From positions 9,159,357-9,223,356 of the forward strand of contig NC_089863.1 in assembly GCF_036373705.1 (NCBI RefSeq): a stretch of 64,000 nt of DNA, written 5' to 3'. Shown one piece after another: positions 8,601-63,712 of the stretch (positions within the stretch are counted from its first letter, which is position 1; each line of letters opens with the position of its first letter). The translations under genes and the position numbers were made by a program. The notes under the pieces are model-generated. The model did no database searches. It saw nothing but the letters and a program-made list of their open reading frames with translations, and was not told the origin of the DNA. Source of the DNA: Amia ocellicauda. Lineage: Eukaryota > Chordata > Actinopteri > Amiiformes > Amiidae.

Positions 8601-11600
8601 AAGGGCCGTACGAAGTTATTGAGGCTGTGGGGCCAGTAAATTACAAGGTCCGACAACCTGATAAGCGTAAGAAGGAACAGCTTTACCATGTCAATCTATT
8701 AAAACCATGGATAGAAAGAGAAGGGCTATTAGGGGGGTCAGGACAAGGTAACTGCTGTCCCACCCAGATACAAATAAAAGGGGGCAGCGACAATCGAGAG
8801 GAGACCGGTCCCGTAAACATTGGTCCAGAGTTGACACCTAAACGGGTCCAAGAAGTTCATGAATTGATACGTCGACGTCGCGATGTATCTTCATCGACAC
8901 CTGGTAGAACTAAGGCCATAGCACATGATATTATAACGGCCCCTGGCGTGAGGGTAAAAATAAGACCATACCGGGTTCCGGCCGCTCAGAAAGCTGAAGT
9001 CTATAAGGAAATAGAATTAATGAAAGCCTTAGACGTTATAGAAGAGTCGCATAGCCCATGGTGTAGTCCTTATTTGATGGTTGCAAAACCCAATGGTACG
9101 TGGCGATTTTGTAACGACTTCCGGCAGTTAAATGCAGTATCAAAATTCGATGCCTACCCCATGCCAAGGGTAGATGAGCTGATCGAGAGGCTTGGTAAGG
9201 CCTGGTACCTAATCACACTAGACCTTACCAAAGGATACTGGCAAATTCCGTTGACGCCAGCAGCTCATGAAAAAACTGCCTTCGCCACCCCATTTGGGTT
9301 ATTCCAGTATAAAGTAATGCCGTTTGGGCTCCATGGAGCACCCGCAACGTTCCAAAGACTAATGGATAAAATTCTACAACCACACCTGGACTATGCATCT
9401 GCATACATTGACGATATTGTTATCTTCACAGAAACATGGGATGACCATCTATCCAAAGTGGAAGCCGTGCTGAGTAGTTTGAAACAAGCAGGTCTGACCG
9501 CAAACCCAGACAAGTGCTTTGTGGGCTTGCAAGAGGCCAAATATTTAGGATACGTAGTGGGCGGTGGAGTGGTCAAACCACAGGTCTCAAAGGTGGAGGC
9601 CATTAAAAGCTGGCCGATTCCCCGAACCAAAAAACAAGTCAGGGCATTTTTAGGGCTAGCAGGATACTATAGAAGATTTGTGCCTGAGTTTTCGACCATA
9701 GCAGCCCCGTTGACGGATCTGACTAAGAAGATGGCCCCAGTTAAGGTGCAGTGGACAGTGGAAACGGAAGCAGCCTTCCGTATGATCATTAAAAGTTTGT
9801 GTAGTGAACCGGTGTTGACGGTACCAGATTTCACTAAACGGTTCATAGTGCAAACGGATGCATCTGACATAGGACTGGGGGCTGTTCTGTCTCAAATCGT
9901 AGATGGAACGGAGCACCCAGTAATGTACCTCAGTCGTAAACTTCTACCAAGGGAGACGCGATATGCCGTGGTAGAAAGGGAATGCCTGGCTATAAAATGG
10001 GCGCTGAACTCCCTGAAATACTACTTGCTGGGGCGGGAATTTTCCCTGGTTACTGATCACTCTCCGCTTGTATGGATGAAGGATCACAAGGACCGCAATG
10101 CTGATGTTGTTTTTGAGCTGACGGTTTGGTTTGTTTTAACTGTGTAGTCAGTGGACCAGCCGGTTTTTTGTGTCGGAGTTATTTAGTATAAAACTTTGGT
10201 TGGCCCACGCGCCACATTTAGTTTGGTTATTAGATCTATAAATTGTGAAGTGTAAGATATTAGGAGCTGGGATTGTTGGGACCCGCCCTGAAGAGTGGAC
10301 GCAGTAAAGGTTGGGTTCGGTCAGGTCACAGTAGGAGACCTGAGAAGAAAATAGTACTGTGAAGAAGAAAACATGTAAATAAACTAATCCCTGAACCCGT
10401 GGAGTACAGCCTGGTTTTTCTGCCTCCCTTCGGACAAAAGTAGAGGTAACCTTATCGGGGGAGTCCGAGCTTCACAATATGTATATATAAAGTTCATGCA
10501 TTTTCAATAGTCAGTTGTAAATCAATCGGCACCTCACATTGCATTTCAAAATGGTTCAGCTTTGCGTTCAACGCCGGCAGCTCTAACAAAAACAAGCGAG
10601 CGTTGAGTGTTGCTCGTCTAAAATCCAAAGTACAGATGCTCGGAAAACCTCAAAAACTCCAAGGTGAACCACGCCTATAATCCCAACCCGTATGTTAATC
10701 ACATCCAGTCTGCGCCCCTACATTGTATTTAATGTTGGCGCTGCAGTGCAATGTGTACTGCATTTAATTCAGTCACTACCATCACGCTGCTTTAAGCAAT
10801 GTAAAGTATTATTACATTCAATTGTGGCATTCAAATACTACGATGCCATAAAGCAATTCAGAAGGGATAAGACACAAAAATAAGCTGGTATTGATTAACA
10901 ACGTGTGTATTGTATTTAATTATGGCACGACAAATTCGCAACCTCCTGTAAAGCAAAACGCTGATAATTTTTCTATTTCAACTTATATTTTATATATGTC
11001 TCTCTCCCTCCCAGTGTGTCTATAATAACACCCCCCACCTCTCTATCTCTCTCTCTCTCTCTCTCTCTCACCAGTATGCATGTCTCCTTCAGCTCCCTGA
11101 CTTCAGGCTTTACTCTGTCCAGCAGGGTGGTGATCTTCTCATTGGCCTTAATAAACCCACATGGAGGGGCTGAGAGAGAGAGAGAGAGAGGGGTTAATAC
11201 AGACACACAGGGGGGTGAGAGAGGCATTAATATATACACACAGAGAAGGAGGGAGGGAGAGAAAGCAAGAGATACAGAGAGAGAGCGTGACAGTGAGAGG
11301 GAGGTGTAATTTACGTTTCTTCTTCTTTTTCTCATTCTCGTCCTCCTTGTCCGTCTCCATCACCTGAAAAACAGCGCCCAGTTAACATCCAATTAACAAT
11401 CAAAACAACATTAGGGCTCCCACTAATTACTATTTTGGTAGTCGAGTATTCTGTCGATTATTCTGACGATGAATCGAGTTATTAAAGTCAATGTGTGTGA
11501 AGCACACCTTTTGTCTTGCTTTAGTGTTTCTTAACCAATAGCAGAGAGGTTTGTTGTGAGTTTTTTGCATTGGTAAAAAACAAAACAAAAAAAAACATCT

Positions 11601-12456
11601 CTCTGGAGGACAAAGGACAAATGGTGGTGCTGTAAGTGCTCAAGTCTATCAAATGAGGGATGTTTTGAACATTTTACTGCTTCGGAGACCTATAAAAGGT
11701 AATCAAGCAATTTGTCAGTATTGTAAACTATGAATTGGGCGCATTGTTCAGTATTGTAGACGGTGACTGGAAGAGGCAGAAGTTGATCACAAGGATGTAA
11801 ATGCGAGGGGGTGAAGGCACAGATGAAGATGTTTGTATTTACTTCAGCTGGTCAACCTGAACATCAGAATCGCCTTTTCAACACAGATTACAGAACTGAC
11901 ACAGAAGTGGAAATACACAGAAGCAGTAGTCCGAGATGCATTTAACACGGCACCAAGGAGAAAGAACACATCTGCACACATCTGAGTCGGACACACGCCT
12001 TTGCAATCAAGGAAAATTAAGCAATGTACGTTCATTATTATTGTTATGATTAAGTATTATTGGTACTAATAAGGACAACAATAATAATACTCTGTACATC
12101 TGAAGATGCTTTTATATGTATTCAACACACCGCAGAATCTAATCAGCCAGTTCAGTTTGTTTTGTGTTTTGTGTTTGGCCTGTAATTGTGACGAGCTTCT
12201 AGACAGGTGCGCTCCTTTTAAGTGTTTATAAGCCGGGTTCATTTTTAAACCCCTGTCGTCTTAAATTCATGTATTCATTCCACAAATGAACTAATCATGA
12301 AAAGAATGAAAAACTCCAGTGTCTTAAGTTTCTTGTGAAATATAGGTTGGCCCCCTGGCTGCTGCTCACCTCGTCCTCTGGCTTGGGCGGGTCGGGGATG
12401 GGGATGTCCAGCGGGGCGTGGAGAGAGGACAGGTCACCCACGTTCATCACATCATC

Positions 12457-12514
<58 letters not shown>

Positions 12515-12809
12515 TAATCAAGACTCGCGTCTGACTGAACACTGCCGCCCAAATATTATATTTTTTTTGTGTCACCTTCAGCAGGTTGTCCAGTTGGATG
12601 ATCTTCAGGGGGATCCGCTCCGAGAACAGCTGGTCTGCCTGGAGAGACACACAACGCAGCGAATCGATATTAAGACACCACAACACAGCGACACGATATG
12701 AAAACCACAATAACACTGATACAATATTTACACAACACAGTATTTCCCTACCTGTTGAAACAGCGACACCCTGAAGGTCTCCACCTGCAGAAGAAAGGGA
12801 ACCGCAGTG

Positions 12810-14981: not shown

Positions 14982-17900
14982 ATGAAAATGCCCTCAGATC
15001 TGGACCGCCTGGAGGAGCTGAGGGCCAGGGCCGAGACGTTGCTGGCGTCCGGCTCCGCCCAGGAGGTGCGCCCGGCCGTGGAGGAAATGGCCTCCCTGCA
15101 CCTCCCCCTGTCGGACAAATACCGGCACATCGCCGCCGAGGCCATGGTCAGGGAGAACGGAGGCGGGGCTTCTGACACCGAGGTGAGATGCCGGCCGGCC
15201 AGTCGGTGATCCCGGCCATCGAGTCGGTGTCTCGGGGGTTGAGATTGTGATCACTGTATTGATATTAAATGGACAGATTACAGTCTGTGTTCAGGAGAGA
15301 AATGGGTCACAGAGAACAATGACATCACTCTCTCTCTCTCTCTCTCTCTCAGTCTATGTCATCTCTGCAGAAGCTCTCGACCGCTCTTAACATCTTGGAG
15401 AAGTACGGCTGTAACCTGGTGTCCCCGGGCCGGCCGCGGTACTGGAGGACCGTCAAGCACAACAACCCGGTGTTCAGAGCCACGGTGGACTCCATCACTG
15501 TGAGAGAGAGAGAGAGAGGGGGGTTGTGGGGTTGTGTTGCTGTTGTTGTGGTTGTGTAATTGCTGGGGGGAGAGGTGCTACAGTACCGTATGGTACAGCA
15601 GGGGCGTCGGGCGTTAAATCTCCCTCTGTGTCTCAGGGGGGGCGCGCCGTGCTGTGTCTCTACGGCTACTCCAATCAGCAGTCGGACGGGCTCAGCTTCC
15701 CCGAAGACGTGAAGGAGCCCGACACCCTGAAGGTGGCCGCGGTGACGCTGGAGGTCATGACCCTGCGACTGGAGCTGGACATACTCATCAAGGTACAGCA
15801 TGAACGTTTTTTTTTTATTGGCGTTGTTAATTAGTTAATTTGGTTTATTGTTTAATTGGTTAATTGCTGAGCTGGTTACTTGTCTTAATCGTGGAACTGA
15901 GTAGAGCTGAGATGTTTGTTGGGTATTTGTAAATGGATAGGTGGTTTCTGGTGTAATTGGAGACTGGTGTTAATTAGTTAATTAGCTGATGGGTTAATTG
16001 CTGCGGCTGATGTTGGCAGGGAGTGCACCCCCACCCTGCAGTGTTCCAGGACGTCACGATGGCCAGCGTTCAGCAAGGGGAGACCTTACCACAGGTCAGA
16101 CTCTCGCTCTCTCTCTCTCTCTTTCAATGCAATTCAATTTCAATTTAAGGTGCTTTATTGGGAAATCTGTGTTGCCAAAGCAATTGGACATTACATACAT
16201 GTATTGAAAATAAATAAAATAATACATCACAATGCTTTATAAAATTGTATATATAAATCTCACTCTCTCGCTCTCCCTCTTTCTCTATCTCTATATATTC
16301 CTATCTCACTCTACACTCTCTCTCTTTCTACACTCTCTCGCTCTCCCTCCCTCTCTTGATACTATTTCATGATACTATGTAATGATTGTTGTTCCTGTGA
16401 TAACGATGCTGTGCTGTTGTGATGTTTGGTTGTGTTGTTGCGATATTCTGACGTTGCACTGTGATGGTCTGTGTGAGGCTGTGTTTTTTGTTGTCATATT
16501 CTGTTGTTGTGATGTTGTGTTGTTGTTGCTGCTTTTCAGGCTCCCGTGGTTGCCAGCCCGGACTCTGTACTGGCTGGGGGGGCAGCTGGGAACATGGTAA
16601 CAGAGACGGACTCCATCCCGCTACAGTACCCCCTGACTATTGGCCCCGCCCCCATAATGTCCCCCACCCACGTCCCCGCCCAGTCGCTCCGAGCCACGCC
16701 CCCTTCACTGCCCCCCAACTCTCACACAGGTACACAACTCCCCCTCTCTGCCTGTGTGTGTTTGTGTTTCACAGTGATCACACTGTATTGATATTAAATG
16801 GACCGATTACAGTCTGTGTTCAGGAGAGAAATGGGTCACAGAGAACAATGACATCACTGTGACATCACTCTCTCTCTCTTGCCCCACCCTACCCTTTCCC
16901 TCACTCAGTAGGGGAGTGCAGTGTCTGTGGTAACACCCCGACTCTCTCCTGCCCTCCCTGTGGCTCCACCCTGTTCTGCGAGACATGTGACCTCGTGTTC
17001 CACCGCCACCCAGGGAGAGCCAATCACAACAGAGAACCCCTCCGCAATGTGCCTGGTGAGCGAATCGCTATGGAGTCGCCAATTAATCAATTACTAATCA
17101 ACAAAGACTGATTAGCCCAGTCAGTGTATCAGGGGTTAAAGGATAACCCTCTCTCCCCCTCTCTTTCCCTCTCTTTCTCTCTCTCTCTCACCCTACAGAC
17201 AGCTGCACCATTTGTGGAATATTCCCCGTCTCCGTCCACTGCCCCTCCTGCATCCAATGGCTGTGCTCAGACTGTGACCGACTGTACCACAGTCACCCGG
17301 CCAGGGGGGGACACCGGCGCAGCTCTGTGGCATCTCCCAGCCCCCGGAGGCTCCAGAGCTGCAGGTGAGAGAGAGAACGAGAGAGAGAGGTGGATACTGT
17401 GGGTGGATACTGTCCTACAGTGTCCAACAGAGATGGAGTATTGAGCGAGACCCTGTCCTGGTCTCCAGACCGGCATTAAGGCCAAACTGTGGGGTCTTGG
17501 TCTCGGCACCTCTGGTCTGGATCAGGGTCTCGGCATGTCAGTCGAGGGTACATAGATTGTATAAAAATAGATTGCCTTTCGATTTCGGACAGACTCGGAC
17601 TCACCCCAGGGGGAACACCTGACCGATCGAACTTCCATGATTGGTTGGCCTCCTCTATATAAACAGGAAGCCAACAGTCTTTGTTGGTTGGAAAGGCAGG
17701 TAAAGGCCGGTAAAGGCCCCTGACTGTTGGCTTGTTAGTGTTTATTTAAAGCAGGGTTTCACAAGGTCTGGTGATGGAGGTCCAATTTCCAGAGGTTGCA
17801 CAGGATGGGAGGCCGCAGTAGAACATTAACCACAGATAAAAATGATATATGTCCTGAATCATACCTATTTATTTTATTTATATATTTCTGTTAGGGATCT

Positions 17901-20900
17901 TCTATTAACTTTAATTGTTGTTTTATTATTTCCCCCCAGATTACATGTACAATTTGTAACGGAACAGTCTCAGAAAGTGTAAAAATATAGTAAAGGTTCA
18001 GAAAAGGGTTAGGCTTTGGGGGGCCACACCAAACATCCTTGAGGGCCGCATTTGGCCCCCAGGCTGCACTTTGAGACCGCTGATTTGAAGTGTTTGTAGA
18101 GAGGGACAGAAAAATTTAAGTTAGGCTCCAGTTTTTTGTTAGTTTTGTTTTTTTATTTCTGTTTTCCTTTCACCACCTGAGCACTGTATATAATACATAA
18201 CCTCCCAGGCACCATGTCCACCCCACACGGTGTCACTATACTGACAAGACAACATTGTAGAGGGAGATTTTACTTGTAATATTTTGTTTATATCATTAAA
18301 AGGTTCCATGTTGTTAGTTCCATTTTGTCAATAAAGCCATCGCTAGTTTGCAGGTACTCCTTTCTGGGGGATACTTTAATTATTTGTTTCTTGGCATTGT
18401 ATACAGCTTGTCTTGAGGTTGTGTCAGTCAACACAAACAGTGTGATGGTTGTGTGTTTTGGGGCACAGGCATTTGGTGGAGGATTTAAAACAACAGCTTT
18501 GATAATATCTGTTGCCTGAAGTATGCTGACCAGCAGTGAATATCCTTTTGACCAGTGCCACATAAGTAGATTTCAACACCTCAAGCACAACGACCACAGT
18601 AATAATCAATCTCAGTTATTGGTTAAGTGTTATACATGTGGTAATTCTGGGTTTTAACAAGATGAAGTCACTTCTGATAGAAAAGACCTCATTGTCTGTC
18701 TCTGAAGATATAAAAAGGCGTCTCCAACTCAAGTCTTGAGATCGTTTCTTCATTTCGTGTGAGAGGAGGCTCCGGGATGACCTGGATTTATTTTGTTTGT
18801 AATAAACTTGTTACTTCTTCACTGGTGGGTGCTGAGAATGTCTGAAACCTGTACAACATTGTAAGGGATCGTGACACACTATGTTTCTCTATGTTCCTCA
18901 AATCTGTATGTAAAGTATATTGATCTCGCTCTCGACCCATTCAGACTTGGTCTTGATCTGGGACTCGGGTCACCTGGTGTCCAGTCAGTATTGTCAGTCA
19001 GTCAGTCAGTGTTGTCAGTGTTAATCTTGTGATCTCTCTCTCTCTCTCAGCCCTGCTCAGTCTGTGTGTGTGCGGTCGCTCTCGGGGCGCTGGGTGTGTG
19101 TGTCCTGCTCCAGTGTGAACGAAGGCGTGGCCGCTCTGTGCTTGTGCTGTGAGCGACCTCGCGCCGCGCCACCCCCTGCTGCCCGGGAGGACACACTGCC
19201 ACCTGTCACTCTCTCTTGCCAGACCAGTGAGTATGAGTGTGTCAGAGAGTGTTGTGTGTGTCTGAGAGTCTGTATTTACCCTTCTCTCTCTCAGGCAGTG
19301 AGTGGTGCTGTCAGAGCTGTACAGTGCTGAATCCCAGCAGCAGTGTCCTGTGTGAGGTGTGTGAGCGCCCCCGCCTGGCCACACGCCCCCCAGCTCTGTC
19401 AGGGCCACCCCCCCAACCCCTGAGCTCCCCTCCGCCCGCTGCCATGACAATGCCTGCGCAGGTACACTCTATCTCTCTCAGTGCAGTGTTAATGTGCTGT
19501 AGTGTTCAGTCAGTGTGTCTGTATTAACCCTCTCTCTCAGTGCAGTGTTAATGTGCTGTAGTGTTCAGTGTGTCTGTATTAACCCTCTCTCTCTCAGTGC
19601 AGTGTTAATGTGCTGTAGTGTTCAGTCAGTGTGTCTGTATTAACCCTCTCTCTCTCAGTGCAGTGTTAATGTGCTGTAGTGTTCAGTCAGTGTGTCTGTA
19701 TTAACCCTCTCTCTCTCAGTGCAGTGTTAATGTGCTGTAGTGTTCAGTCAGTCAGTGTGTCTGTATTAACCCTCTCTCTCTCAGTGCAGTGTTAATGTGC
19801 TGTAGTGTTCAGTGTGTCTGTATTAACCCTCTCTCTCTCAGTGCAGTGTTAATGTGCTGTAGTGTTCAGTCAGTGTGTCTGTATTAACCCTCTCTCTCTC
19901 AGTGCAGTGTTAATGTGCTGTAGTGTTCAGTCAGTGTGTCTGTATTAACCCTCTCTCTCTCAGTGCAGTGTTAATGTGCTGTAGTGTTCAGTGTGTCTGT
20001 ATTAACCCTCTCTCTCTCAGTGCAGTGTTAATGTGCTGTAGTGTTCAGTCAGTGTGTCTTTATTAACCCTCTCTCTCTCAGTGCAGTGTTAATGTGCTGT
20101 AGTGTCAAGTATAGATCATACCTCTCGCTCTCTCTCCCCCCCTCCCCCCCTTCCCTCAGTGGGTGTGTCAGTTCTGCACCTTCGTGAACGCCAGCTCTGG
20201 TCCTGTCTGTGAGATGTGCAACCTGGCCCGTCCAGACCACGCCCCCGCGCCTTCCCAGTATCCCGTCACCCCGGCGACCAAGGAGCCCCCGGCTCCCATC
20301 ACGCCCTCGAAGCCAGCAGCCCCGCCCATCCCCACGCCCAGGAAGAATGCTGACTGGCTGAGGCAGAGCCGGATGAAGGAGGATGGGCTGAAGCTCATCA
20401 GGATGATCCGAGTGGGTGGAGCTTCAGTCTGTAACGGTTGCGGTTGTAGATGTTGTGTAGAGTAAAACAGTGCAAAATTACACTGATCCTCTCTCTCTCT
20501 CTCTCTCTCTTTTCCTTTTTCCCGCTCTCCGTCAGGAGGGGGAGAGCCGGGGCTTCAGTCCCGAGGAGGTGTGGGCGGCGGCCAATTGCTCGGAGAGCAG
20601 TGAGCCCTGTGATTGGCTGAGGGTGGAGCTGCCGCACATGCTGGAGGAGTTGTGCGAAGCGGCTCGTTTCGATCTGCAGGGGGCAGCGCTGTCCCAGCAG
20701 GAGGCCAAAGAGGCCTGGATCAGAGCCGGGGGGCAGAGAGACAGGGCCCTGATCCTGGCCCTCAGAGACAGACAGGCCAAGGTAAAGGGGGAGGAGGCAG
20801 TCAGTGCGTCAGCCAGTCAGTCACTCAGTGTGTCACTCAGTCAGTCAGTTTGTCAGTCACTCAGTGTTAATTTTGTGATCACACTGTATTGAAATTCATT

Positions 20901-22712
20901 GTCAATTCTGGTTTCTCTCTCTCTCTCTCTCTCTCAGGTGCGGGAGCTGCAGGCAGTGGGCATGTGGGGGGGGCAGTGTGCCGAGGCCTTGCGGCGCAGC
21001 GGGGGCTCTGTGCGGGAGGCGCTCTGTGAGCTGCAGCGCCCCCTGCTGGAGCCCTTCCATCAGCGCCTGTGGAGCCAGGACTGCGAGCCAGCCATCGATG
21101 TCAAGCACACGGACAAACAGGTCAGAGAGAGAGCAAGAGAGGGAGTGTGTGTGTGAGTGAGTCACGCTGTGTCTCTGTGTGAGTGCGTGTATTTCTGTGT
21201 ATATTAACTCTCTCCCTCACCCCCTCACCCCCCTCTTCCTCCCTCTGTGTAGCGGGTGCTGCGCAGATTGCTGGCTGTGTTCGAGCTGCCCAGCTGGGGG
21301 CGCTGTGAGCTGGCCCTGTCGTTGCTGCAGGAGCCCGGCGCCCCCTACGGGCTGGAGGACGTGGTGCAGGCCGTGCGTGAGTCACATGACCGGGATCTCA
21401 TCCACCGGCTGCTGGCCAAGGAATGTCCCATCTGCATCACTCCATACCCCCAGAGCAAGGTGTGTCCCTCTGTCTGACTGTCAGTGTGTCCATCAGTCTG
21501 CCTGACTGTCTGTCCCTGTGTATCAACCCTCTTTCCCTCTCTCTCTCTCTCTCTCGCTCCCTTTCCCTATGTGCAGATGCGGGCTCTGACCTCGTGTCAG
21601 TGCAGCGTGTGCTCCAGCTGTTTTCAGCAATACTTCACCATCACCGTGAGGGACAGACACATCAGGGAAATGGTGTGTCCAGTGTGTGGACTGCCCGACA
21701 TCAACGAGCAAGCCCAGCTCAACAGCTACTTCTCCACGCTGGACATCCAGGTCTGACAACATTGTTTGATTCAAAATGCAGCCAACAATGTGGAAACTAG
21801 CCGCCATTTCGGCTCCAGAGGCACACCAGATGCGGCACTAGTTTTTCCCAGAGTTCTAGAGTCTCCATTTGGGAACACAAGCTTCCTACAGTGTGCTGCA
21901 GCTGTGCGGCACTGCTGTCTTACAGTGCTGTGTGACAGTGCTGTGCTGTGGTGGTGTTGCAGTTGCGTGACAGTGCTCTGTTGTTGCAGTTGCTTGACAG
22001 GGCTTTATTGCTGTGTTTTTGTATTTGCATGACAATGCTGTGAAGTTGTTGCAGTTGCTTGATAGGGCTTCATTGTTGCATTGTAGTTGCGTGACAGGGC
22101 TGTGTTTTTGCAGTGGCGTGACAGGGCTGTGTTGTTGTGTTGTTGCAGTGGCTTGACGGGACTGTGTTGTTGTGTTGTTGCAGTGGCTTGACGGGACTGT
22201 GTTGTTGCAGTGGCGTGACAAGGCTGTGTTGTTGCAGTGGCATGATAAGGCTGTGTTGTGTTGCAGTGGCGTGACAGGGCTGTGTTGTGTTGCAGTGGCG
22301 TGACAAGGCTGTGTTGTTGCAGTGGCGTGACAGGGCTTGGTTGTTGTGTTTTTGCAATGGCGTGAGAAGACTGTGTTGTGTTGTAGTTGCGTGACAAGGC
22401 TGTGTTGTGTTGTAGTTGCGTGACAGGCTGTGTTGTGTTGCAGTGGCGTGACAGGGCTGTGTTGTGTTGTAGTGTAATGACAGGGCTGTGTTGTGTTGCA
22501 GTGGCGTGACAGGGCTGTGTTGTGTTGTAGTGTAATGACAGGGCTGTGTTGTGTTGCAGTGGCATGACAAGGCTGTTTTGTTGTGTTGTTGCAGTTGCGT
22601 GACTGTCTGGAGCCCGAGGTGTACCAGCTGTTCCACCAGAAGCTGACGGAGCAGGCGCTCATACAGGATCCCAAATTCCTCTGGTGTACACACGTTAGTA
22701 CCCAACACACAC

Positions 22713-22746
<34 letters not shown>

Positions 22747-23583
22747 CACTCACTGACACATTACAGATCAAACTGGTACTGTGTTTAACTGATACACTGG
22801 TTAACTGATGCTCTCTCCCTCCCTCAGTGCTCGTTCGGGTTTATCTATGATGGAGACCAGCTGAAGGTGACCTGTCTTCAGTGCAGGAAGAGCTTCTGTG
22901 CCAAGTGCAGGAAACCTGTGAGTGAGAGGGAGGGGGAGGCTATTATTAACACAGAGCCCTGTAACACCCAGAGCTCGGACCCGGTTACAAAACACCCCAC
23001 ACCCTGATCTCTGGACCCCGGGGACACCAACACTAGAGCACAGAGCACACTGGAGACTATGGGTTGTGTTATTGATGTTGTGTTATTGTTGTGTTGCATT
23101 GCAGTGGGAGCAGCAGCATGCGGGGCTCACCTGCGAACAGTTCCAGCTGTGGAAGAGAGAGAACGACCCGGAGTACCAGAGACAGGGCCTGGCGGGGTAC
23201 CTGAGGGACAACGGCATCAGTACGGCACTCTGACTAGTACTGACTAGACTGACTGACACTCTGACACACTGACACACTGACTGACACTCTGACTGAGTGA
23301 CACAGGACAGTGCTGTCATAATGGTGTGATCGCTTGTCCCCAGCCTGCCCCAGCTGTGGTTTCCAGTACGCTCTGTCCAAGGGGGGCTGCATGCACTTCA
23401 CCTGCTCCCAGTGTCGCCACCAGTTCTGCAGCGGCTGCAACAACCCCTTTCACACTGTGAGTCCGTCTGTCCGTCTGTCCGTGGTCACTGAGCCGGTACT
23501 GGGTCAGGTGACAGTGAGGATGTTGTAGTTTTGATGTCCCGTCGGGTCAGTGTGTCTGTATGAACCCCTCTCTGTATTAACCC

Positions 23584-23616
<33 letters not shown>

Positions 23617-25920
23617 AGTCTCAGTCTCAGTGCTCAGTGCAGCAGTGTTCAGTGACGGGGTTACACGCCCACCACCCCAGGGACTGTTTCTTCTACTTGC
23701 GGGACTGGGACCCCACCAGACTGCAGATCCTGCTGCAGGTACACAGCCCTGTCCTCTCCCTCCGTCTCCCTCTATCTATGTCTCTCTCTCACTACAGTTT
23801 TGATGTCTGTATTAACTCCCCCTCTCTCTCTCTCTCTTAACAGAATAACAATGTGGAATTCAACACAGAGCCCCCGCCTGGCTCACAGGCTGGTACGACA
23901 CTGCATCTGTCTGTGTGTCAGTCTGTATTTCAGTTAGTGTGTCTGCGTGTCAGTCAGGGTGTCAGGGTGTCTGCTTGTGAGTCTGTGTGTCAGTCAGGGT
24001 GTCTGCGTTTCAGTCAGGGTATCTGTGTGTCGGTCAGGGTGTCAGGTGTCAGGTGTCAGGATTTTTTAATGTCCCCAAATTGTCGGCTCCAAGTAAATCA
24101 CAGAGCACCAACACTTTCCCAGCCTGTGGCGTGCCAGTGACACTGCGGGTTGCTACTCGGGTGGGATCTGCGGGTTACAGTGCGTTGAATATTGCGAACA
24201 CACTGTTCCCACATTACACTCTGTGCTCGGCAGAGAAATGGGTCCCGGAGAACAATGACAACACTGCGTCTCTACTGACCCCCCCACCTCTCTCTCTGTC
24301 TCTCTCTCTCAGGACAGTGTGGCGTGATGGAGCAGAAGGAGGAGGGGGCGAGGCTGCTGGACGCCCCGTGTGGAGCTCAGAGTCAGAGGGGTCAGGCAGG
24401 GCTGTGCGAGTGAGTGACTCTACTGCCACTGGATTAATACTGCTGGGACTGTTACTCTTAATAGTGTCAGTGTTAGTAATATAGGTACCACCCTTAAGTC
24501 ATATTATTATTATCATTATTATTATTATTGTAGTAGTAGTAGTAGTAGCAGGGGTTAAACATGGGCTCTGGCAGCCTCCATGGTCGGGGGAAAAATAATT
24601 AGCAATACGTTTTAGCTGAAAATATATTTAGCCAAAACTGAAGGAGGCTATGAAGAGTTCTCTCCTTGCTGGGCGCTCCAACAATAAGGCGCGCTCCCAA
24701 ACGTGCTCTCTCTTTCCAAGATGTGTGCGTGTCCCGCAGATGTAGAAAGAGTTGTCTTCTTGTTCTATTGTGCTCCCATTTCCCACTACAGAGGCATCCC
24801 ATTTAAGTCGTTCGCTAACAAAGCTAGTTCATCACGCGTCGCCACTGTCCCACCTTTACCAGGGTTTTGGTAGACGTTGATAATATCAGTTCTCCCAAAA
24901 TTGGGGCATGTATTACTCAGTACCCATTTATTTGGAAAGGATTTGTGATGGAGACGAGGCGCGGCTGTGGAGCTGAGATTGTGTTGGAAAGGGAACGCGT
25001 GCGGTTTGTTTGCGCCGCGTCTTGACTGGCTTCTGTAATCCAGTGCGCAGCTGCAGAGCGTGGGGATGGAATTGACCAATAGAGAGGACGTTGCTGTGGT
25101 CTATTCGCAGCCCTAGAGATATTACTTTTTCTTTTTTACCCAATCACAGACCGCGATTTTACAAATATCTAGCCAATCCAAAGACACTCTGAGAGCCCTG
25201 GGACTCGGCTGATAAGGCAGGTTACGCACCGCTGCACAGCCGAGCGCAGAGCACGGAGAGAGAAACTGACTTTTACAGTGTGGCTTATAAACAATATGCT
25301 TTTTCTGTCAACCACAATGTTTTTAGTAGCTATGGATTCAGAACTTCAGTTAAAAGCAGTATGCATGTATAATATACTTATAAGGCAGTATTTGAGTGGA
25401 CAGTGTGCCCAGCTGCATGGCTGATATGCATTTGCCCCCCTAAGTGTGCTATAGGTGTCATTTGGCTTTCTGTCTCTGAACAATAAAGTAGAAACCAGGG
25501 GCAAAACATTGATATAACAGTTATGTTTAGTTAATCTACGTCTCAAAGTGTAGCGGAGCGCTGCGTTTAGGGGTTAATGTCCTGAAAACCAATTCCAAAG
25601 CGACAGTATCCCTGGATCTCCCCACATTTGATTTCACTCACCTCGTCTGAATCATAAACAACTATCTAGTGCTTTTAGGCTGTAATTTATCAACGCTGTC
25701 CCAAATACCTCCCCGACTCGCCCTGACGCAGACAGGGCTCCCCCAGGTCCACAGTTCCTACTAAACCCCTGAGTATAAGTAATAGTAGGGTCTATTATTA
25801 GTAGTAGTATTATTATTATTATTAGTAGTAGTAGTAGTAGTAGTGTTTGCTATTATTATTATTATTATTATTAGTAGTAGTAGTAGTAGTAGTGGGGTTT
25901 ATTATTATTATTATTATTAT

Positions 25921-30592: not shown

Positions 30593-30653
30593 CTGTATTA
30601 CTGTCAATATCCTAATCACACTGCGAACCCTGTGTCTGTATTCTCCCTCAGCG

Positions 30654-37033: not shown

Positions 37034-37890
37034 TCACTTTAAAATGTCACTGAACATCATTCTCTTCTTGGATTGGGCTGTCTGGAGCTCCTCCCACTGG
37101 TCCCGCCTCTTCAGGAAGTGAGTCAGGGCGAAGTTCCGGAACACGTGGTGACCGAACTGGTCTGACCTGAGGGTGGCCTTGCTGCCCACTGAGAGAGTGA
37201 GAGAAATGTTGGGGGTTAAATACAGACAGTGTTGACAATGTTTCCAGGGTGCCATTTCTCCACAGAACACAGAGTTCCGGAAACAAATTCGCGTCGCGTG
37301 TTCCGGAATATTACATCTGGGAACTGAACATCTGTATGGTGTGATCGCAATATCAACACTCACTGACACTGGTTCATTGACCGCAGTGAGGGAGACTCAC
37401 CCAGTTCCTGTGCGATGCCCTGCCTTGTCCTGAGGGACGCGCTGCTCCACACACTCTCCAGAGCACGACTGCCAAACTTAGAGCACGCCATCTGCACGTA
37501 GACACCCTGAGAGAGAGAGAGAGAGAGGGAAAGAGGGAGGAAGAGAATGAACTCCTGTTTTTATTGGGTTGTTTTTTTCCTGTTAGAAGTCAGACTTTCT
37601 CACACTCTCGCACCGACCTTCAGCCTCCTCAGCATTTTGATCCTCCCCTTCTCGGTCAGCGACGTCACCAGAGCCTCCAGCACGTGGCTCCCCGACTGGT
37701 CGGTTGCCAGGGTCAGGAGGTCGCTGGGGGGCAGGGCCCTGAGGGAGACCTGGAGGACGGAGCTGTCTGAGTAGGAGAGCAGTGACTGGACGAGGCAGGA
37801 GCCGTGATACGTCACTCCAGAGAGGGGGCGCTGAGAGAGAGAAGCCATAATATTAGCACTAATAAACGACGCATACACTGACTGACAGAG

Positions 37891-45695: not shown

Positions 45696-46445
45696 TGTCT
45701 GTCTGTATTAACCCTCTCTCTCCCTCTCTCTTGTTACAGAACCTGACAACTCTGTCTCACCTGGACCAGCTACTATTGGTCACTCACATCAACCTGTCGT
45801 CCAATCAGCTGCGAACACTGCCCCCCCATGTCGCCATGCTGCAGTGCCTGGAGGTCAGAGGCCAATTAGATAGCAATTAACCAATTAACCACAATTGAGT
45901 GTGTCTGTCTGTGTTTCTGTTACTCCCTGTGTGATTCACCTCAGTGTCACTCTCTTCCCTCTTTCCCTCCCTCCCTCTCCCTCTCTCTCCCTCTCTCCTT
46001 CTCTCTCCCCCCCCCCCCTCTCTCTCTCTCTCTCAGGTGTTGGAGGTGGAGGATAACCAGATCGACAACGTGGATGGACTGTACCACCTGCCCAGGCTGG
46101 AGGAGGTGTGTCTGCGGAACAACCGTATCCTTCCCCTGCAGCGCAGCGGTGCGGTCCACCTCGGCACCATAACAATCGCAATGATAGCACTAACACTCGC
46201 ATTGGGATGTTTTTAAAGAATGATAATAATCACGATGATAACAGTGATATTGACTCTGTCCGGTCAGCCTGTTTCCTTGACCCGGCACCTCTCTAGGAAT
46301 TGGCAAGGTGTCTGACCTCCGACCCCTGGCCACCTGCCCCAAACTGTTCAAGCTCGACCTCCGCGGAAACGCAGTCGCTGAGCTGGCCGAGCTCCAGTCA
46401 GAGCTGGCCGAGCTGCTGCCCACAGTGAGGGAGCTCCTGTTCTGA
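41991..46445 (+). CDS. rabggta: Rab geranylgeranyltransferase subunit alpha
   Basis: With RABGGTB it attaches geranylgeranyl to C-terminal cysteines of Rab proteins presented by REP. Exons: 41991-41993, 42122-42232, 42339-42463, 42583-42770, 43071-43298, 43610-43693, 43825-43907, 44103-44198, 44482-44581, 44685-44736, 44845-44933, 45015-45103, 45528-45644, 45740-45853, 46037-46124, 46297-46445. They give 571 aa (human 567). Protein prenyltransferase alpha helical repeats come first ([48 protein letters not shown]). An Ig-like insert is about 247-350, then more helical region ([15 protein letters not shown]), then leucine-rich repeats from about 456 to the end. The protein begins MHGRVKLK; its Met is alone in the first coding exon and His-Gly-Arg starts exon 2. 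Phases agree throughout. Confidence 0.96.
42805..43045 (+). repeat. (GTCA)n minisatellite in RABGGTA intron
   Basis: tcagtcagtgtgtcagtcag variants, beginning 35 bases after the donor and ending near the (CT)n before exon 43071. A similar tract fills 43908-44085 before exon 44103. Confidence 0.85.
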
Positions 46446-48665: not shown

Positions 48666-48673
48666 TGTTCCAC

Positions 48674-49035
48674 TGTACTGCCCACTGTGGGTATCCTTTC
48701 ACGGGGGTCACCAGGGGGTCAAAAGTCAATCAATGGCTGACACAGTTTGCTTCCTCAGAAGCTGGTGGATTCTCTAGAATCAGTGTGAGATCTGGAGTCC
48801 CCTATTAGCTGTGACTCAATATATAATGTAATAAATATAATAAAGTGGAAATGGATAAGAGAGAGTGTCAGTGTATCAGTACTCAGTGTGTAGTGTGTCA
48901 GTTGTGCCAGCTGACCCCAGCCACGGTGAGCGAGGGGAGCGTGGAGAACAGCGTGACTGTGCACTGGGAAGACGGACGCAGGGAGTGCGTCCTGTACGCA
49001 GGTAACACACACACTCACACTGACTGACTGTCTCT
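48674..49035 (+). pseudogene. Duplicated fragment of RABGGTA (one exon plus flanking introns)
   Basis: Matches 44188-44600 of RABGGTA: the end of exon 44103-44198, most of the intron (tttcacgggggtcaccaggg, gacacagtttgcttcctcag), the whole exon 44482-44581 and its donor. In the copy the exon is at about 48900-49001, still open, with intact gtgtgtcag acceptor and gtaac donor, and with several amino-acid changes. Intron sequence is kept, so it arose at DNA level and not by retrotransposition of mRNA. Confidence 0.9.
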
Positions 49036-50028: not shown

Positions 50029-50103
<75 letters not shown>

Positions 50104-50197
50104 GCAGTGTTGCTGTGTCCAGTCAGTCCGTTTATTCAGCATGTTTGCAGTATTGTACACCACACTGACTGGACACTGCAGTACAAGAACACTGCAC

Positions 50198-50232
<35 letters not shown>

Positions 50233-50979: not shown

Positions 50980-51262
50980 GTCAGTCCAAGGCTCGGTTTC
51001 CTGTTTTCGATTTCACTCTTCAGAAATCACTTCTCCCCTTATCTCTCCCTCTCCCTTCCAAGCATTTGCTTTATTTCAGTTTCTGAGTTCCTGGCTTCCT
51101 CCGCCCCCTCCTCCCTCTCTTTCTCAGTCAGTCAGTGTTTCTGTATTTACCCCCCCACCCCCAGTGCAGTGTAGTGCATATACAGTAGGATCCAGTCAGT
51201 GGGTCAGTAAATTGCTCTTTCTGTTTAAACCACACCACCCTCTCTCTTGTCCCCCTATCCCT

Positions 51263-56102: not shown

Positions 56103-59100
56103 ATGCCGTTAGTGACATCGCGGCAACGCTCTGCGGTCGGTCGGTGGCCGTCCATCACTCTGGTTGGCGTGGAGGAGGAGCCTGAGAAGGAGGGGACAGA
56201 AGGGGCGGAGTCACAGGGCAGGGGCTGTAGCCGATGGATAAGGAGGATGTGTCCCTGTCTCTACCCCAGGTCCAGGAACTATGTTGTGGACCAGGGGACC
56301 TCCGACGGCGCCGCCGCCAAGCCCAACAAGGAAACAGAGATGAGCTGTAATTACTATCACTTAATCTATTATTGTCCAATTAACACCCAGTGTTTCCAGT
56401 AGTCTGTATTCACCCCTCTCCCTCTCTCAGCTCTGGCCCTGGCTGTGGTGTCAGTGGACCTGCTCCACTCTCCCTCGGGTCAGAACCGGAAGGAGCACCA
56501 CACGGACCACTACCACACCAACCAGCTGGTGCTGCGGCGCGGACAGACCTTCCAGCTGTTCGTCACCCTGTCGCGACCCTTCACCCCTGACAGCGACAGA
56601 CTGCACCTGGAGCTCAAGACAGGTCAGCCCAAGTTCTTATTATTATTTACTACCGTTGTTCACAATCATTTTCAGGCTGAAACTGGGTCTGTGAACACAA
56701 TAGCCCAACGCTTTAGTTTAGGTACCAAAAGAAACACCATATGTTTTGAGAAAGTGGAGTATACTTTCAGGGGACACGTGTAAAGGGTTGTGAGGAACAC
56801 TAAAAAAGCAATCTAGAAACAACTGACGCCTAGTGTTGGTCCAATGGGATTCCACCACACCCAAAGTTCCTATGATCCACTGCTGCCAAAGCGTTCTCCA
56901 TTGATCTGGTAAGAGTTCTCCTTGTCCACATCACTGCTTGTTTTCAGCGTCTGTACCTTTGCTCTGGCCTCTTGAGGCGTTCGTGCAAAATATCGTGACT
57001 CCTCTACCGACACCTCTCAGTCTTATCAAAACCACATTTCTAAATATCTAGCAAAATAGACCTCGACAGACACATATCTCTTAAGATCTTGCCATGCAGA
57101 CACTGACAGACACACATCCCCTCCTAGGGAACATATTACAGTTTCTCACAATCATTTACATGCTGAAACTGGGTCTGAACACAGAAACCCAACACACGGT
57201 TCTCCTCATAAAGCACAACCTGTGAGTGAGTGTGTGTGTGTGTGTGCTGTGAGTGTAAGTGAGTGTGGAAGTGTGTCACAAGATGCTTAAAAACCTTTGC
57301 CAACGGCAGACTCTGCTCCCTCTGCTATTAACCTGAGTGACTGTGGGTTATTTTTAACAAATAATTGTATAGAGGATTGTTTATTTGTGATAGTGTCTTG
57401 TTCTCTTTAACATAGTGTGTGTGTGTCACTGTTTTGAAAAATTGTATGTGTGTGCCTGTGTGTCAGTGTGTGTGTGTATATATCAGTGTCTGTGCGTGTG
57501 TGTATATCTGTGTGTGCGTGTGTGTATATATAAGTGTGTGTGTGTGTGTGTGTATATCAGTGTACAGGTTTTTGTGATTTATGGGGACTTTTTTTTAGGT
57601 TACAAACTGGTAATTACTAGGTTATTATGCTATAACTGTGAAATATGGGGACTTTGTCTAGAGTCCCCATGAGTCAAATTGCTTAAAAAACATATCACAA
57701 TTATGTTTTACTGAAAATGTAAAAATGCAGAAAGTTTTTTGTGAGGGTTAGGTTTAGGGGTAGGGTTAGGGTTAGGGGATCTATAGTTTGTACAGTATAA
57801 AAATCATGTCTATGGAAAGTCCCCATAATATCAAAACAAACGTGTGTGTGTGTGTGTGTGTGTGTATCAGTGTGTGTCATTCAGGGATTTGCTCTCCCAT
57901 TGTTACTTACTGTTTTCATAAATGTTTCCTTGGCAACTACTTTTGACAATTAGGTCATAAGTCGAGAAAAACTTCCCAGAAGGCAACTGGTCCAGACATG
58001 TTCCCCTGGCAGAGTCACAGACCCCTTCACTCCCCTTCACACCCCACAATGAGTACACTGACTACACACACTCACAACTACACACTCACTATCACACACT
58101 GACTACACACACTCAGTACCACACACTGACTGAACACACTCACAATCACACACTGACTACACACACTCAGTACCACACATTGACAACACACACTCACAAT
58201 CACACACTGACTACACACACTCACAACTACACACTCACTATCACACACTGACTACACACACTCAGTACCACACACTGACTGAACACACTCACAATCACAC
58301 ACTGACTGAACACACTCACAATCACACACTGACTACACACACTCAGTACCACACATTGACAACACACACTCACAATCACACACTGACTACACACACTCAC
58401 AACTACACACTCACTATCACACACTGACTACACACACTCAGTACCACACACTGACTGAACACACTCACAATCACACACTGACTACACACACTCACAATCA
58501 CACACTGACTACACACACTCAGTACCACACATTGACAACACACACTCAGTACCACACACTGACAACACACACTCACAACTACACACTCACAATCACACAC
58601 TGACTACACACACTCACAACTACACACTCACTATCACACACTGACTACACACACTCACAATCACACACTCACTAACACACACTGACTACACACACTCACT
58701 ACCACACACTCACTATCACACACTGACTACACATATGGACTGTGATGTGTTCGGTACTGTACTGCACTGGTCTGCGGTGTGTTCGGTACTGTACTGCACT
58801 GGTCTGCGGTGTGTTCGGTACTATAGTGCACTGGTCTGCAGTGTGTTCGGTACTGTATTGGACTGGTCTGCGGTGTGTTCGGTACTATAGTGCACTGGTC
58901 TGCGGTGTGTTCGGTACTGTATTGCACTGGTCTGCGGTGTGTTCGGTACTGTAGTGCACTGGTCTGCGGTGTGTTCGGTACTGTATTGGACTGGTCTGCG
59001 GTGTGTTCGGTACTATAGTGCACTGGTCTGTGGTGTGTTCGGTACTATAGTGCACTGGTCTGCGGTGTGTTCGGTACTATAGTGCACTGGTCTGCAGTGT

Positions 59101-61731
59101 GTTCGGTACTGTATTGGACTGGTCTGCGGTGTGTTCGGTACTATAGTGCACTGGTCTGCAGTGTGTTCGGTACTGTATTGGACTGGTCTGCGGTGTGTTC
59201 GGTACTATAGTGCACTGGTCTGCGGTGTGTTCGGTACTATAGTGCACTGGTCTGCAGTGTGTTCGGTACTGTATTGGACTGGTCTGCGGTGTGTTCGGTA
59301 CTATAGTGCACTGGTCTGCAGTGTGTTCGGTACTATAGTGCACTGGTCTGCAGTGTGTTCGGTACTGTATTGGACTGGTCTGCGGTGTGTTCGGTACTAT
59401 AGTGCACTGGTCTGCGGTGTGTTCGGTACTGTAGTGCACTGGTCTGCGGTGTGTTCGGTACTGTATTGGACTGGTCTGCGGTGTGTTCGGTACTATAGTG
59501 CACTGGTCTGCGGTGTGTTCGGTACTGTATTGGACTGGTCTGCGGTGTGTTCGGTACTATAGTGCACTGGTCTGCGGTGTGTTCGGTACTGTATTGGACT
59601 GGTCTGCGGTGTGTTCGGTACTATAGTGCACTGGTCTGCGGTGTGTTCGGTACTGTATTGGACTGGTCTGCGGTGTGTTCGGTACTATAGTGCACTGGTC
59701 TGCAGTGTGTTCGGTACTGTATTGGACTGGTCTGCGGTGTGTTCGGTACTATAGTGCACTGGTCTGCAGTGTGTTCGGTACTGTATTGGACTGGTCTGCG
59801 GTGTGTTCGGTACTATAGTGCACTGGTCTGCAGTGTGTTCGGTACTGTATTGGACTGGTCTGCGGTGTGTTCGGTACTATAGTGCACTGGTCTGCGGTGT
59901 GTTCGGTACTGTAGTGCACTGGTCTGCGGTGTGTTCGGTACTGTATTGGACTGGTCTGCGGTGTGTTCGGTACTATAGTGCACTGGTCTGCGGTGTGTTC
60001 GGTACTGTATTGGACTGGTCTGCGGTGTGTTCGGTACTGTATTGGACTGGTCTGCGGTGTGTTCGGTACTATAGTGCACTGGTGTGCGGTGTGTTCGGTA
60101 CTGTATTGGACTGGTCTGCGGTGTGTTCGGTACTATAGTGCACTGGTGTGCGGTGTGTTCGGTACTGTATTGGACTGGTCTGCGGTGTGTTCGGTACTAT
60201 AGTGCACTGGTCTGCGGTGTGTTCGGTACTGTATTGGACTGGTCTGCGGTGTGTTCGGTACTATAGTGCACTGGTGTGCGGTGTGTTCGGTACTATAGTG
60301 CACTGGTCTGCGGTGTGTTCGGTACTGTATTGGACTGGTCTGCGGTGTGTTCGGTACTATAGTGCACTGGTCTGCGGTGTGTTCGGTACTGTATTGGACT
60401 GGTCTGCGGTGTGTTCGGTACTATAGTGCACTGGTCTGCGGTGTGTTCGGTACTGTATTGCACTGGTCTGCGGTGTGTTCGGTACTGTATTGCACTGGTC
60501 TGCGGTGTGTTCGGTACTGTAGTGCACTGGTCTGCGGTGTGTTCGGTACTGTATTGCACTGGTCTGCGGTGTGTTCGGTACTATAGTGCACTGGTCTGCA
60601 GTGTGTTCGGTACTGTAGTGCACTGGTCTGCGGTGTGTTCGGTACTATAGTGCACTGGTCTGCAGTGTGTTCGGTACTGTAGTGCACTGGTCTGCGGTGT
60701 GTTCGGTACTATAGTGCACTGGTCTGCAGTGTGTTCGGTACTGTATTAGACTGGTCTGCGGTGTGTTCGGTACTGTAGTGCACTGGTCTGCGGTGTGTTC
60801 GGTACTGTATTGCACTGGTCTGCGGTGTGTTCGGTACTATAGTGCACTGGTCTGCAGTGTGTTCGGTACTGTATTAGACTGGTCTGCGGTGTGTTCGGTA
60901 CTGTATTGCACTGGTCTGCGGTGTGTTCTGTATATATACGAGATTAAATTACATTGAGTGTGTGTGTGTGTCTCTGGTGTATTAATACCTCAGGGGCGGG
61001 GCAGGGGCACAGGGGGGCCAGCATCCGTCTGCCTCCTGGGATCTGATTACAGCCCCTCCCAGGATCATGACCCCACCACTGACACTATAAATAGAGCAGG
61101 GACCCCCTCCCTCTGTCTGTCTGTCTCTCTTTCACCATTCTTTTTTGCAAGTCAGTCATTCTCTCTCCCTTCACAGTCCCTCTTTCTCTTCCCTTTTTTC
61201 TAACTCTCTCTCGCTCTCGCTCTCTCTCTCTCTCTCAGTGCAGTGTTAATGTGCTGTAGTGTTCAGTCAGTGTGTCTGTATTAACCCTCTCTCTCTCAGT
61301 GCAGTGTTAATGTGCTGTAGTGTTCAGTCAGTGTGTCTGTACTAACCCTCTCTCTCTCAGTGCAGTGTTAATGTGCTGTAGTGTTCAGTCAGTCAGTGTG
61401 TCTGTATTAACCCTCTCTCTCTCAGTGCAGTGTTAATGTGCTGTAGTGTTCAGTGTGTCTGTATTAACCCTCTCTCTCTCAGTGCAGTGTTAATGTGCTG
61501 TAGTGTCCAGTCAGTGTGTCTGTATTAACCCTCTCTCTCTCAGTGCAGTGTTAATGTGCTGTAGTGTTCAGTCAGTCAGTCACTGTGTCAGTGTGTCAGT
61601 CCGTCAGTCTGTCAGTGTATCAGTCAGTCAGTGTGTCAATATTAACCTCCTCTCCCACCCTGTTCAGGAACTCCATGTATTTCTGTCTCTGGGTGTTAAC
61701 TGTTCTGTGCCCTATTCATTCAGCTAGAATA

Positions 61732-62202: not shown

Positions 62203-62254
<52 letters not shown>

Positions 62255-62376
62255 CCCCTACCTCTCTCTCTCTCCCACACACACACACACACACAGCCCC
62301 TACCTCACACACACAGACACACACACACACACAGTCCCTACCTCACACACACAGACACACACACACACACAGCCCC

Positions 62377-62427
<51 letters not shown>

Positions 62428-63283
62428 TACAACCCCTACCTCTCTCTCACACACACACACACATAGCCCCTACCTCACACACACACACACACCGAACACT
62501 GTTACTACAACACAGCCCCCTATTGTAACAACACTGCTCTACTATACAGTTACTACAGCACAGCCCCCTTCTGGAACTGCACTGTTCTATTGCACTCTTA
62601 ATAAATAATACAAAATAACTTCATATAAAAAATATCAACAACCAATAATAACTACCAGTCATTGTGCTAACGTGCTCCCTGTTTTGTGATTGGTGTGTTG
62701 CCGCTCAGGGCCCCTCCCCATGGTGTCAAAGGGCACCCACGTGATAGTCCCATTGGTGGAGGAGCTGGAGGACAACTGCTGGGAGGCCAAGGTGGTGGAG
62801 AAGGCGGGCTCTCGCATCAAGCTGTCCGTGAACTCCCCGGCAAAGGCGGTTATCGGCCAGTACCAGCTCACCGTGGTGACGCACAGCAACGGCGTTGAGG
62901 CAACCAGCACCCCCAGCGACCTCTGCTTCCTGTTCAACCCCTGGTGTGAGGGTGAGAGCGCTGTGTGTGTGTCTGTCCACCTGTGTGTGTGTGTCCACCT
63001 GTGTGTCTGTCCACGTGTGTGTGTGTGTGTGTCTCTGTCCACCTGTGTGTGTGTGTGTGTTGTACTCACTGGTGTGTGTCCCCACTCAGAGGACACGGTG
63101 TTCCTGGATGATGAGGAATTGCGCAAGGAGTACGTCCTGAATGACACCGGGCTCATCTACTACGGCACAGAGAAGCAGATTGGATGCAGGACCTGGAACT
63201 ACGGCCAGGTGAGCCAGGGGGGAGAGTGCATGTAATGTCAGTCAGTGTGTCAGTCAGTCAGTCAGTCAGTGTGTCTGTATTAA

Positions 63284-63325
<42 letters not shown>

Positions 63326-63712
63326 GATGAGGGGATTCTGGAGGCGTGTTTGTTTCTGCTGGATAAGAGCAGCACCCCCCCCACGGGCCGGGGCGACCCC
63401 ATCAACGTGGTGCGGGTCATCTCTGCCATGGTGAGCGTGCCGGGGCGGCGGGGGTTTGTTGTTGTTGAGGTCATTGCTACAGAGAGTTCTAGCTCCTGTC
63501 TCGTATCTGTATTAATCCTGTCTGTCTCTCTCAGATTAACTCACTGGATGACAGCGGGGTGTTGGAGGGGGACTGGTCGGGGGACTACACCGGGGGCACA
63601 GCGCCTACGAGCTGGGTGGGCAGTGTGGACATCCTGCGGCAGTACCACAAGCGGGGGGGAAAGCCGGTCAAGTACGGACAGTGCTGGGTCTTCTCTGGAG
63701 TCACCACCACAG
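56103..63712 (+). CDS. tgm1: Protein-glutamine gamma-glutamyltransferase 1-like (5' part only)
   Basis: Calcium-dependent crosslinking of glutamine to lysine; in mammals TGM1 is membrane-anchored and builds the epidermal cornified envelope. Exons found: 56103-56346, 56431-56622, 62709-62951, 63090-63208, 63323-63430, 63535-63712 (361 codons, ending in phase 1; the rest is outside the window). The N-terminus has a Cys-containing patch (RRMCPCLYP) that may be lipid-modified as in TGM1. The transglutaminase N domain follows ([37 protein letters not shown]), then the catalytic core with YGQCWVF; the active-site cysteine is C352. Order next to RABGGTA supports TGM1. The donor of exon 1 (agct|gtaatt) is not ideal, so that exon end is less sure. 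Intron 2 is 6.1 kb and repeat-filled. Confidence 0.9.
57564..57843. mobile_element. MITE with gtttatggggac-type ends and telomere-like core
   Basis: Left end caggtttttgtgatttatgg ggactttt; right end, read inward, acgtttgttttgatattatg gggacttt. It is flanked by TG runs on both sides. A similar element is common in fish transcripts (from memory). Inside, 57745-57778 reads as GGGTTAG-like repeats. Confidence 0.6.
58070..58735 (+). repeat. Minisatellite of cacactgactacacacactc units
   Basis: Mixed tandem units (cacacactgactacacaca, ctcagtaccacacactgac, ctcacaatcacacactgact). They directly abut the next array. Confidence 0.9.
58745..60927 (+). repeat. 32-base satellite-like array, about 68 copies
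   Basis: Monomer ggtctgcggtgtgttcggta followed by ctgtattggact or ctatagtgcact. The two forms alternate over long stretches, giving a 64-base dimer period. Homogeneity is high. No unique spacers are present. Confidence 0.97.
61232..61575 (+). repeat. Splice-acceptor-like minisatellite, TGM1 intron 2 copy
   Basis: Six copies of the same unit as 19466-20107 (cagtgcagtgttaatgtgct ... gtctgtattaaccctctctc). One copy reads tactaaccc. Sense orientation relative to TGM1. Confidence 0.95.
62195..62490 (+). repeat. (CA)n / cagcccctacctc compound repeat
   Basis: Long (CA)n runs separated by cccctacctctctctctc or cagcccctacctcacacac units, in TGM1 intron 2. Confidence 0.9.

Follow-up and report, generated by a model that had tools for sequence, protein, structure and literature searches.

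Intron tails shared by unrelated bowfin genes match the 3′ end of a dispersed minisatellite-type repeat

Why should introns of unrelated genes end in nearly the same bases? The question is raised by a 64,000-nucleotide stretch of contig C20 of the bowfin Amia ocellicauda (the window), in which a preliminary description had noticed one tail, built from TATTAAC, a pyrimidine tract and CAG, before acceptors of at least five genes on both strands, and had proposed spread of an intron-terminal element, repeated gene conversion or an unusually strict branch-point preference as possible causes. Irimia and Roy (2008, PMC2483917), in the part drawn on here, describe the introns of vertebrates as highly variable in sequence. 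The answer favoured by the present analysis, with a probability of roughly two in three, is that the shared tails are copies of a splice-site repeat that has spread within chromosomes, its terminal unit serving as the acceptor.

All results, the gene models included, derive from DNA and protein sequence. The genes modelled on the plus strand are RNF31, whose translation is identical to the A. ocellicauda protein record P0121, RABGGTA, the 5′ part of TGM1, and EMC9 and IRF9, both partial; those on the minus strand are PSME2 and NOP9. The RABGGTA and NOP9 models are based on A. calva protein records marked partial, and those of PSME2, TGM1, EMC9 and IRF9 are homology-guided. Together they supply a sample of 68 tails, from 64 modelled introns and four acceptors set by hand.

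All 13 tails named earlier are present, each as the 12-mer CTGTATTAACCC with at most two mismatches (none in five, one in four, two in four). Eleven end at modelled acceptors and two, TGM1 56430 and NOP9 39895, at presumed ones, because the models began within the following exon. At the same tolerance the 12-mer is found in 14 of the 68 tails, in five genes and on both strands, and is absent from the other 54; the tail additional to the 13 belongs to RNF31 intron 13. On the minus strand, PSME2 carries it in intron 5 (11170..11202, exact, and also in the genome-wide listing) and intron 3 (12457..12522, two mismatches and a long (CT)n), and NOP9 in intron 9 (37189..37225, as CTGTATTTAACC, the 3′ end of a long-form repeat copy), in intron 3 (39059..39088), a 92-base intron that scarcely exceeds one repeat unit, and before the exon at 39658-39894 (39895..39930, exact, presumed acceptor). 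On the plus strand, RNF31 has it in introns 8 (19270..19294, one mismatch), 13 (21518..21576, two mismatches), 18 (23556..23618, two tandem copies with one and no mismatches) and 19 (23807..23843, one mismatch), RABGGTA in introns 10 (44984..45014, two mismatches) and 12 (45703..45739, exact), and TGM1 before the exon at 56431 (56404..56430, one mismatch, presumed acceptor) and in introns 3 (63275..63322, exact) and 4 (63507..63534, one mismatch). The predicted branch-point A lies 17-58 bases from the exon in the motif tails, and the interval between it and the acceptor is free of AG in all 14. The variants are star-like around one 12-mer, most being one or two changes off the master sequence, as in decaying copies.

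Orientation and context controls were counted at one or fewer and at two or fewer mismatches to CTGTATTAACCC, excluding two tandem arrays treated below. Sense tails hold 10 and 15 matches, respectively, in 5,409 positions (9 and 14 of the 68 tails), and antisense tails hold none at either tolerance in the same number of positions. The remaining gene spans, 35,973 positions per strand, hold 0 and 3 matches in sense and 0 and 2 in antisense, and one of the three sense matches, CTGTATTCTCCCTCAG with two mismatches (30636..30651, plus strand), is the likely tail of a 5′ intron of IRF9, its acceptor lying outside the models. Intergenic DNA on both strands holds 1 and 4 in 43,132 positions. Within the window, these counts at the stricter tolerance uphold the claim that the tail always lies in the sense of its gene. 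The resemblance among tails extends past the branch-point core. CTGT stands directly before ATTAAC in 6 of 11 tail copies as against 0 of 37 copies elsewhere (0.3 expected), and CTGTA..CC occurs in 5 of the 16 tails with TTAAC, compared with 0.06 on average and 2 at most when the flanks were shuffled 2000 times around a fixed TTAAC. A run of (CT)4+ is present in 31 of 68 tails in sense and in none in antisense. Chance as the origin of the shared tails was rejected on the window counts, the shuffles, the CTGT context and the reversed control of the genome scan given below.

Judged by alignment, what these introns share is the 3′ end of a bowfin repeat family, dispersed and existing as a short unit and a longer form, both of which align with the tails. 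The short unit is a minisatellite of 57-70 bp, TGCAGTG...TGTAGTGTYCAGTCAGTGTGTCTGTATTAACCC(CT)nCAG, which holds CTGTATTAACCC(CT)nCAG and thereby a full putative 3′ splice-site module: a branch-point-like TATTAAC, an AG-free pyrimidine tract and CAG. The longer form has both ends of the short unit and about 80 bp of added, non-simple sequence, and ends within 60 bases of the acceptor in four of five copies. It is found on the plus strand in RNF31 introns 1 (15252..15328), 5 (16781..16857) and 20 (24166..24281), with a partial copy in intron 11 (20856..20901, E 8e-4, outside the model seeds), and on the minus strand in NOP9 introns 9 (37212..37373) and 5 (38441..38564), where a short-unit start is joined to the long middle part. 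Searches with nhmmer at E<1e-3 place the family in 11 introns, all in sense, and in two intergenic places, seed copies included; as the seeds were taken from the window, the E-values of the seed copies are circular. The intergenic places are two unit starts in inverted orientation, flanked by (TC)35 and (AG)15 (50100..50198, both orientations), which fold at 50031-50230 as a predicted long hairpin (z -5.2), and a diverged copy consisting of CTGTATTTACCC, pyrimidines and AGTGCAGTG (51128..51209, plus strand). Exact matches of the repeat unit in viral contigs number 0.

The two tandem arrays in the window, both on the plus strand, hold 15 further motif copies, all in sense. One, in RNF31 intron 9 (19472..20109), comprises about 10.6 units with TATTAACCC(CT)nCAG at a spacing of 57-65 bp, and the other, in TGM1 intron 1 (61226..61580), about six units of the same type. 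A block of 351 bp (six units) is common to both and identical at 349 of 351 positions, with the same unit spacings (61, 61, 65, 57, 61), its left edge within (CT)n and its right edge within (CAGT)n. RNF31 intron 9 also presents eleven potential decoy acceptors of the form (CT)nCAG (exon starts 19482-20082), ten of which follow TATTAACCC. The RNF31 protein record skips all 11, and each would yield a stop after six codons.

The family reaches well beyond the window. The strict pattern CTGTATTAACCC-N{0,20}-CTCTCTCTCAG gives 1022+912 = 1934 matches in the 988 Mb and 385 contigs scanned, and the reversed pattern, the control used, 0+0. In 1897 of the matches CAG is followed by T, as in array units, and most of the 100 strict matches listed sit in tandem runs. 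Single tails such as that of a glycogen synthase gene (L003), one further supported tail from the strict matches listed, also read CAG followed by T, and a pattern demanding A, C or G there (CAGV) misses genuine tails whose exon starts with T. This narrower pattern finds 37 places (control 0), a count that presumes a complete genome scan, and 34 of them are on contigs C18 and C20, two of the 385 contigs with 78.5 Mb between them.

The 37 places comprise 12 inside arrays, two upstream copies in one ephrin-gene tail and 23 that are terminal or solo. For 12 of these 23, a same-strand exon (the only orientation scored) begins at the CAG and is supported by homology or a gene model: PSME2 (gene model), ADSL, tetraspanin (E 1e-5, below Pfam's cut-off), ankyrin, SSRP1, GMP reductase, CIDE-N, SH3, coronin, TAO2, TLC and ephrin, the homology match starting at the CAG or within about 10 residues of it. 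An array of several units runs right up to the terminal CAG in six loci (L033, L036, L038, L046, L052 and L054). Within the first 10 kb downstream of the window, four tails with no or one mismatch stand before open frames, three resembling TGM1 and one an alpha/beta hydrolase; the first of these tails is fused to a long-form 3′ end. Sixteen 10-kb comparison stretches on C6, C7, C8, C11 and C18, placed at round numbers and neither random nor matched for gene density, hold no exact 12-mer, one with one mismatch and 13 with two. That the tails belong to the family, lie in sense in the sets tested and stand at modelled or homology-supported acceptors can be read from the sequence, and use of these acceptors in vivo and branching at TATTAAC seem probable. 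Two loci add other arrangements: the ephrin-gene intron (L061) has at least three modules of CTGTATTAACCC, pyrimidines and CAG just before the exon, in a different and shorter repeat context, and an intron of a putative immunoglobulin-domain-like gene (L010, recognised by eye) has a single sense unit about 150 bases before the presumed acceptor that is not a tail.

The units differ by contig. Among the 55 C18, 43 C20 and 39 C8 units of the loci fetched, AATGTACTGTAG marks 52 of the 55 from C18 and none of the 43 from C20, and AATGTGCTGTAG none of the former and 41 of the latter. GTGTCCAG is present in all 55 C18 units and GTGTTCAG in 38 of 43 C20 units, and the C8 units are of the C18 type. 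Tandem units in the range of 10-100 bp with chromosome-specific variants are what a chromosome-homogenised minisatellite displays. These variants and the shared 351-bp block, read along with the arrays that extend to a terminal CAG and the concentration on C18 and C20, suggest copying within chromosomes with rare jumps, and fit the earlier proposal of repeated gene conversion. The C8 units form one array of 39 (L011, C8:21151500-21156200), which starts without a (CT)n tract.

A mechanism can be proposed on this basis. Copies of the unit lie in sense in introns, either singly or arrayed in tandem. Where the last of them abuts the exon, as in a number of introns, it would supply branch point, tract and AG. 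Selection on the acceptor would preserve about 30 terminal bases as the remainder decays, leaving solo tails. Spread would occur mainly by recombination-type copying within a chromosome, whether gene conversion, unequal exchange or array transfer, with (CT)n and (CAGT)n tracts as anchors. Copies may land in sense at intron ends because the polypyrimidine tracts of introns are (CT)n on the sense strand; untargeted insertion should leave antisense copies too, whereas anchoring of the copying in (CT)n would account for sense-only placement.

Several observations weigh against this explanation. The (CT)4+ run is found in 9 of 14 motif tails and 22 of 54 others, a difference that is not significant (p=0.14), and the excess of upstream G/T repeats (9 of 14 against 14 of 54, p=0.011) is modest, so that both lend weak support to anchoring in microsatellites. 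Among the 23 terminal or solo places, two have weak homology only (L054, acyltransferase, 0.015; L058, SGF29 tudor, 0.0066) and nine have an open frame without convincing homology (L033, L036, L038, L041, L045, L046, L051, L053 and L056), four of the nine with Pfam matches below the cut-off only. Of the six loci in which an array reaches the terminal CAG, L052 (SH3) is strongly supported, L054 weakly and four are unsupported. Nine of the 27 places scored as single contain at least three of six unit words, two of the nine being array units, and some solo tails could be convergent, since some tails have no unit-like sequence upstream. One exact copy (L015:2809) and eight two-mismatch matches in the 40 kb downstream of the window are not placed at acceptors. 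Weak antisense matches to the short model occur at E 0.005-0.04, for example in RNF31 intron 17 and TGM1, and cover its CAGT-rich part only. Finally, C18 and C20 may simply be gene-rich.

Of other explanations, a transposable element is unlikely, though it accounts for part of the data. An element such as a short retroposon with a microsatellite-targeting partner lacking long terminal repeats (non-LTR) would insert into (CT)n in a fixed orientation, arrays arising later. Copies do appear to follow pyrimidine tracts in fixed orientation, also in the intergenic places at 50.1 kb (both arms) and 51.1 kb, the non-simple part of the long form and its closeness to acceptors would suit such an element, and fish elements specific for (TG)n microsatellites are published, as described in the part of PMC4640811 used here. 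Against it, the contig-specific variants and the shared multi-unit block are typical of satellite turnover, the C8 array begins without the (CT)n that would have been its target, and neither a target-site duplication nor a coding partner was identified, no genome-wide search having been made for them. In the long-form consensus and five copies, three simple patterns detect no pol III boxes, and neither a tRNA nor, at the gathering threshold, any Rfam family is recognised; an origin from a tRNA or another Rfam-type RNA was rejected on the lack of A and B boxes and of such matches. Far less probable is convergence, in which the bowfin spliceosome prefers TATTAAC and slippage makes the flanking (CTGT)n and (CT)n. 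TATTAAC would be a good branch point and (CT)4+ is common in the tails, but 53 of 69 tails lack TTAAC within branch-point range (16 of 69 have it), the context common to tails goes beyond the core, and whole units of 50-60 bp lie upstream of some tails. In intron-poor eukaryotes a near-uniform branch-point motif, pyrimidine tract and AG similarly recur, in most introns according to the portion of Irimia and Roy (PMC2483917) considered, whereas in the bowfin a minority of tails, concentrated on certain contigs, share them, and not most introns genome-wide. The strict branch-point preference put forward earlier is likewise unsupported, since a spliceosomal preference would act throughout the genome and 34 of the 37 CAGV matches are on two contigs.

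Two further rivals are harder still to credit. That the repeats created these introns, as introners do, is improbable, even though NOP9 intron 3 is hardly longer than a unit and has a unit start near its 5′ splice site. Introners, as treated in the part of Gozashti et al. (2022, PMC9860276) drawn upon, are likewise repeats scattered through many genes of one genome and provided with a 3′ splice site, and in some families the element brings that site and the 5′ site is recruited. Introners have entire introns in common and generate new ones, whereas the bowfin family shares the 3′ tail only and its host introns look old. Many similar copies are indeed found in introns of unrelated genes, but the 5′ ends of the 12 motif introns compared are not shared, nucleotides 7-40 having a mean identity of 0.29 as against 0.26 in other introns, and introners that span the whole intron were rejected on this. 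PSME2 has 11 modelled coding exons. Human PSME2 presumably has 11 as well, and the exon numbers look ancestral. The suggestion of a spreading intron-terminal element thus stands as regards a dispersed sense repeat concentrated on C18 and C20, and is not supported in its strict, introner form. The least credible alternative is that intron-exon boundaries were duplicated locally in tandem, in the manner of the mirage minisatellites of amphioxus. There, units holding an intron 3′ end with AG signals lie beside the exon in the globin and Adh genes, and the authors' data suggest that regular splicing is undisturbed (PMC3087553, in the part covered); arrays ending at a presumed exon in the six bowfin loci resemble them. 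Mirages duplicate the local boundary of one gene, whereas the bowfin unit is dispersed over unrelated genes and chromosomes and lacks the local exon: the unit sequence after CAG, TGCAGTGTTAATG, differs from the exon start, with a mean of 6.8 of 28 identities over 68 exons and at most 10 of 28 among the 17 motif or array introns listed.

The reading of the tails as copies of a chromosome-spread splice-site repeat has a further parallel. In chromosome-specific satellite families, tandem units are homogenised within chromosomes and blocks are exchanged. The bowfin family is like them in its homogenisation and unlike them in that its unit is a predicted splice-acceptor module within genes. The bowfin case is best described as a minisatellite family whose variants are chromosome-specific and whose units probably act as splice acceptors in a number of genes. 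Neither intron tails common to several bowfin genes nor this repeat came up in the literature searched, and the bowfin genome paper (PMC8423624), which gives 22.1% repeats, describes no such family in the part covered.

The window also holds features apart from the family. A copy of RABGGTA intron 7 and exon 8 (44180-44600) lies at 48672-49020 with 75.8% identity over 421 aligned columns and adjoins a reverse-transcriptase open reading frame at 48180-48737, recognised by eye as resembling that of a long interspersed nuclear element; it is probably a partial gene duplication or a transduction. Two long open frames like those of LTR retroelements lie inside the 7.4-kb PSME2 intron 6 (5866-10144, plus strand), and Tc1/mariner-like transposase frames, also recognised by eye, at 754-1790 on the minus strand.

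The usual view is that selection shapes splice acceptors intron by intron. In the bowfin, a repeat appears to be the source from which a set of acceptors was copied, in sense and concentrated on certain chromosomes. Put in its fullest form, which is tentative and somewhat short of an even chance, the family would be a self-spreading splice-acceptor cassette in a vertebrate, a minisatellite copied from intron to intron along a chromosome. By molecular drive it would make the acceptors of unrelated introns alike, introns that already existed and were not created by it, and its arrays would add poison decoy acceptors. If true, concerted evolution would be acting on a core splicing signal, the bowfin family may represent a step linking passive repeats with introners, and its decoy acceptors would amount to a natural experiment.

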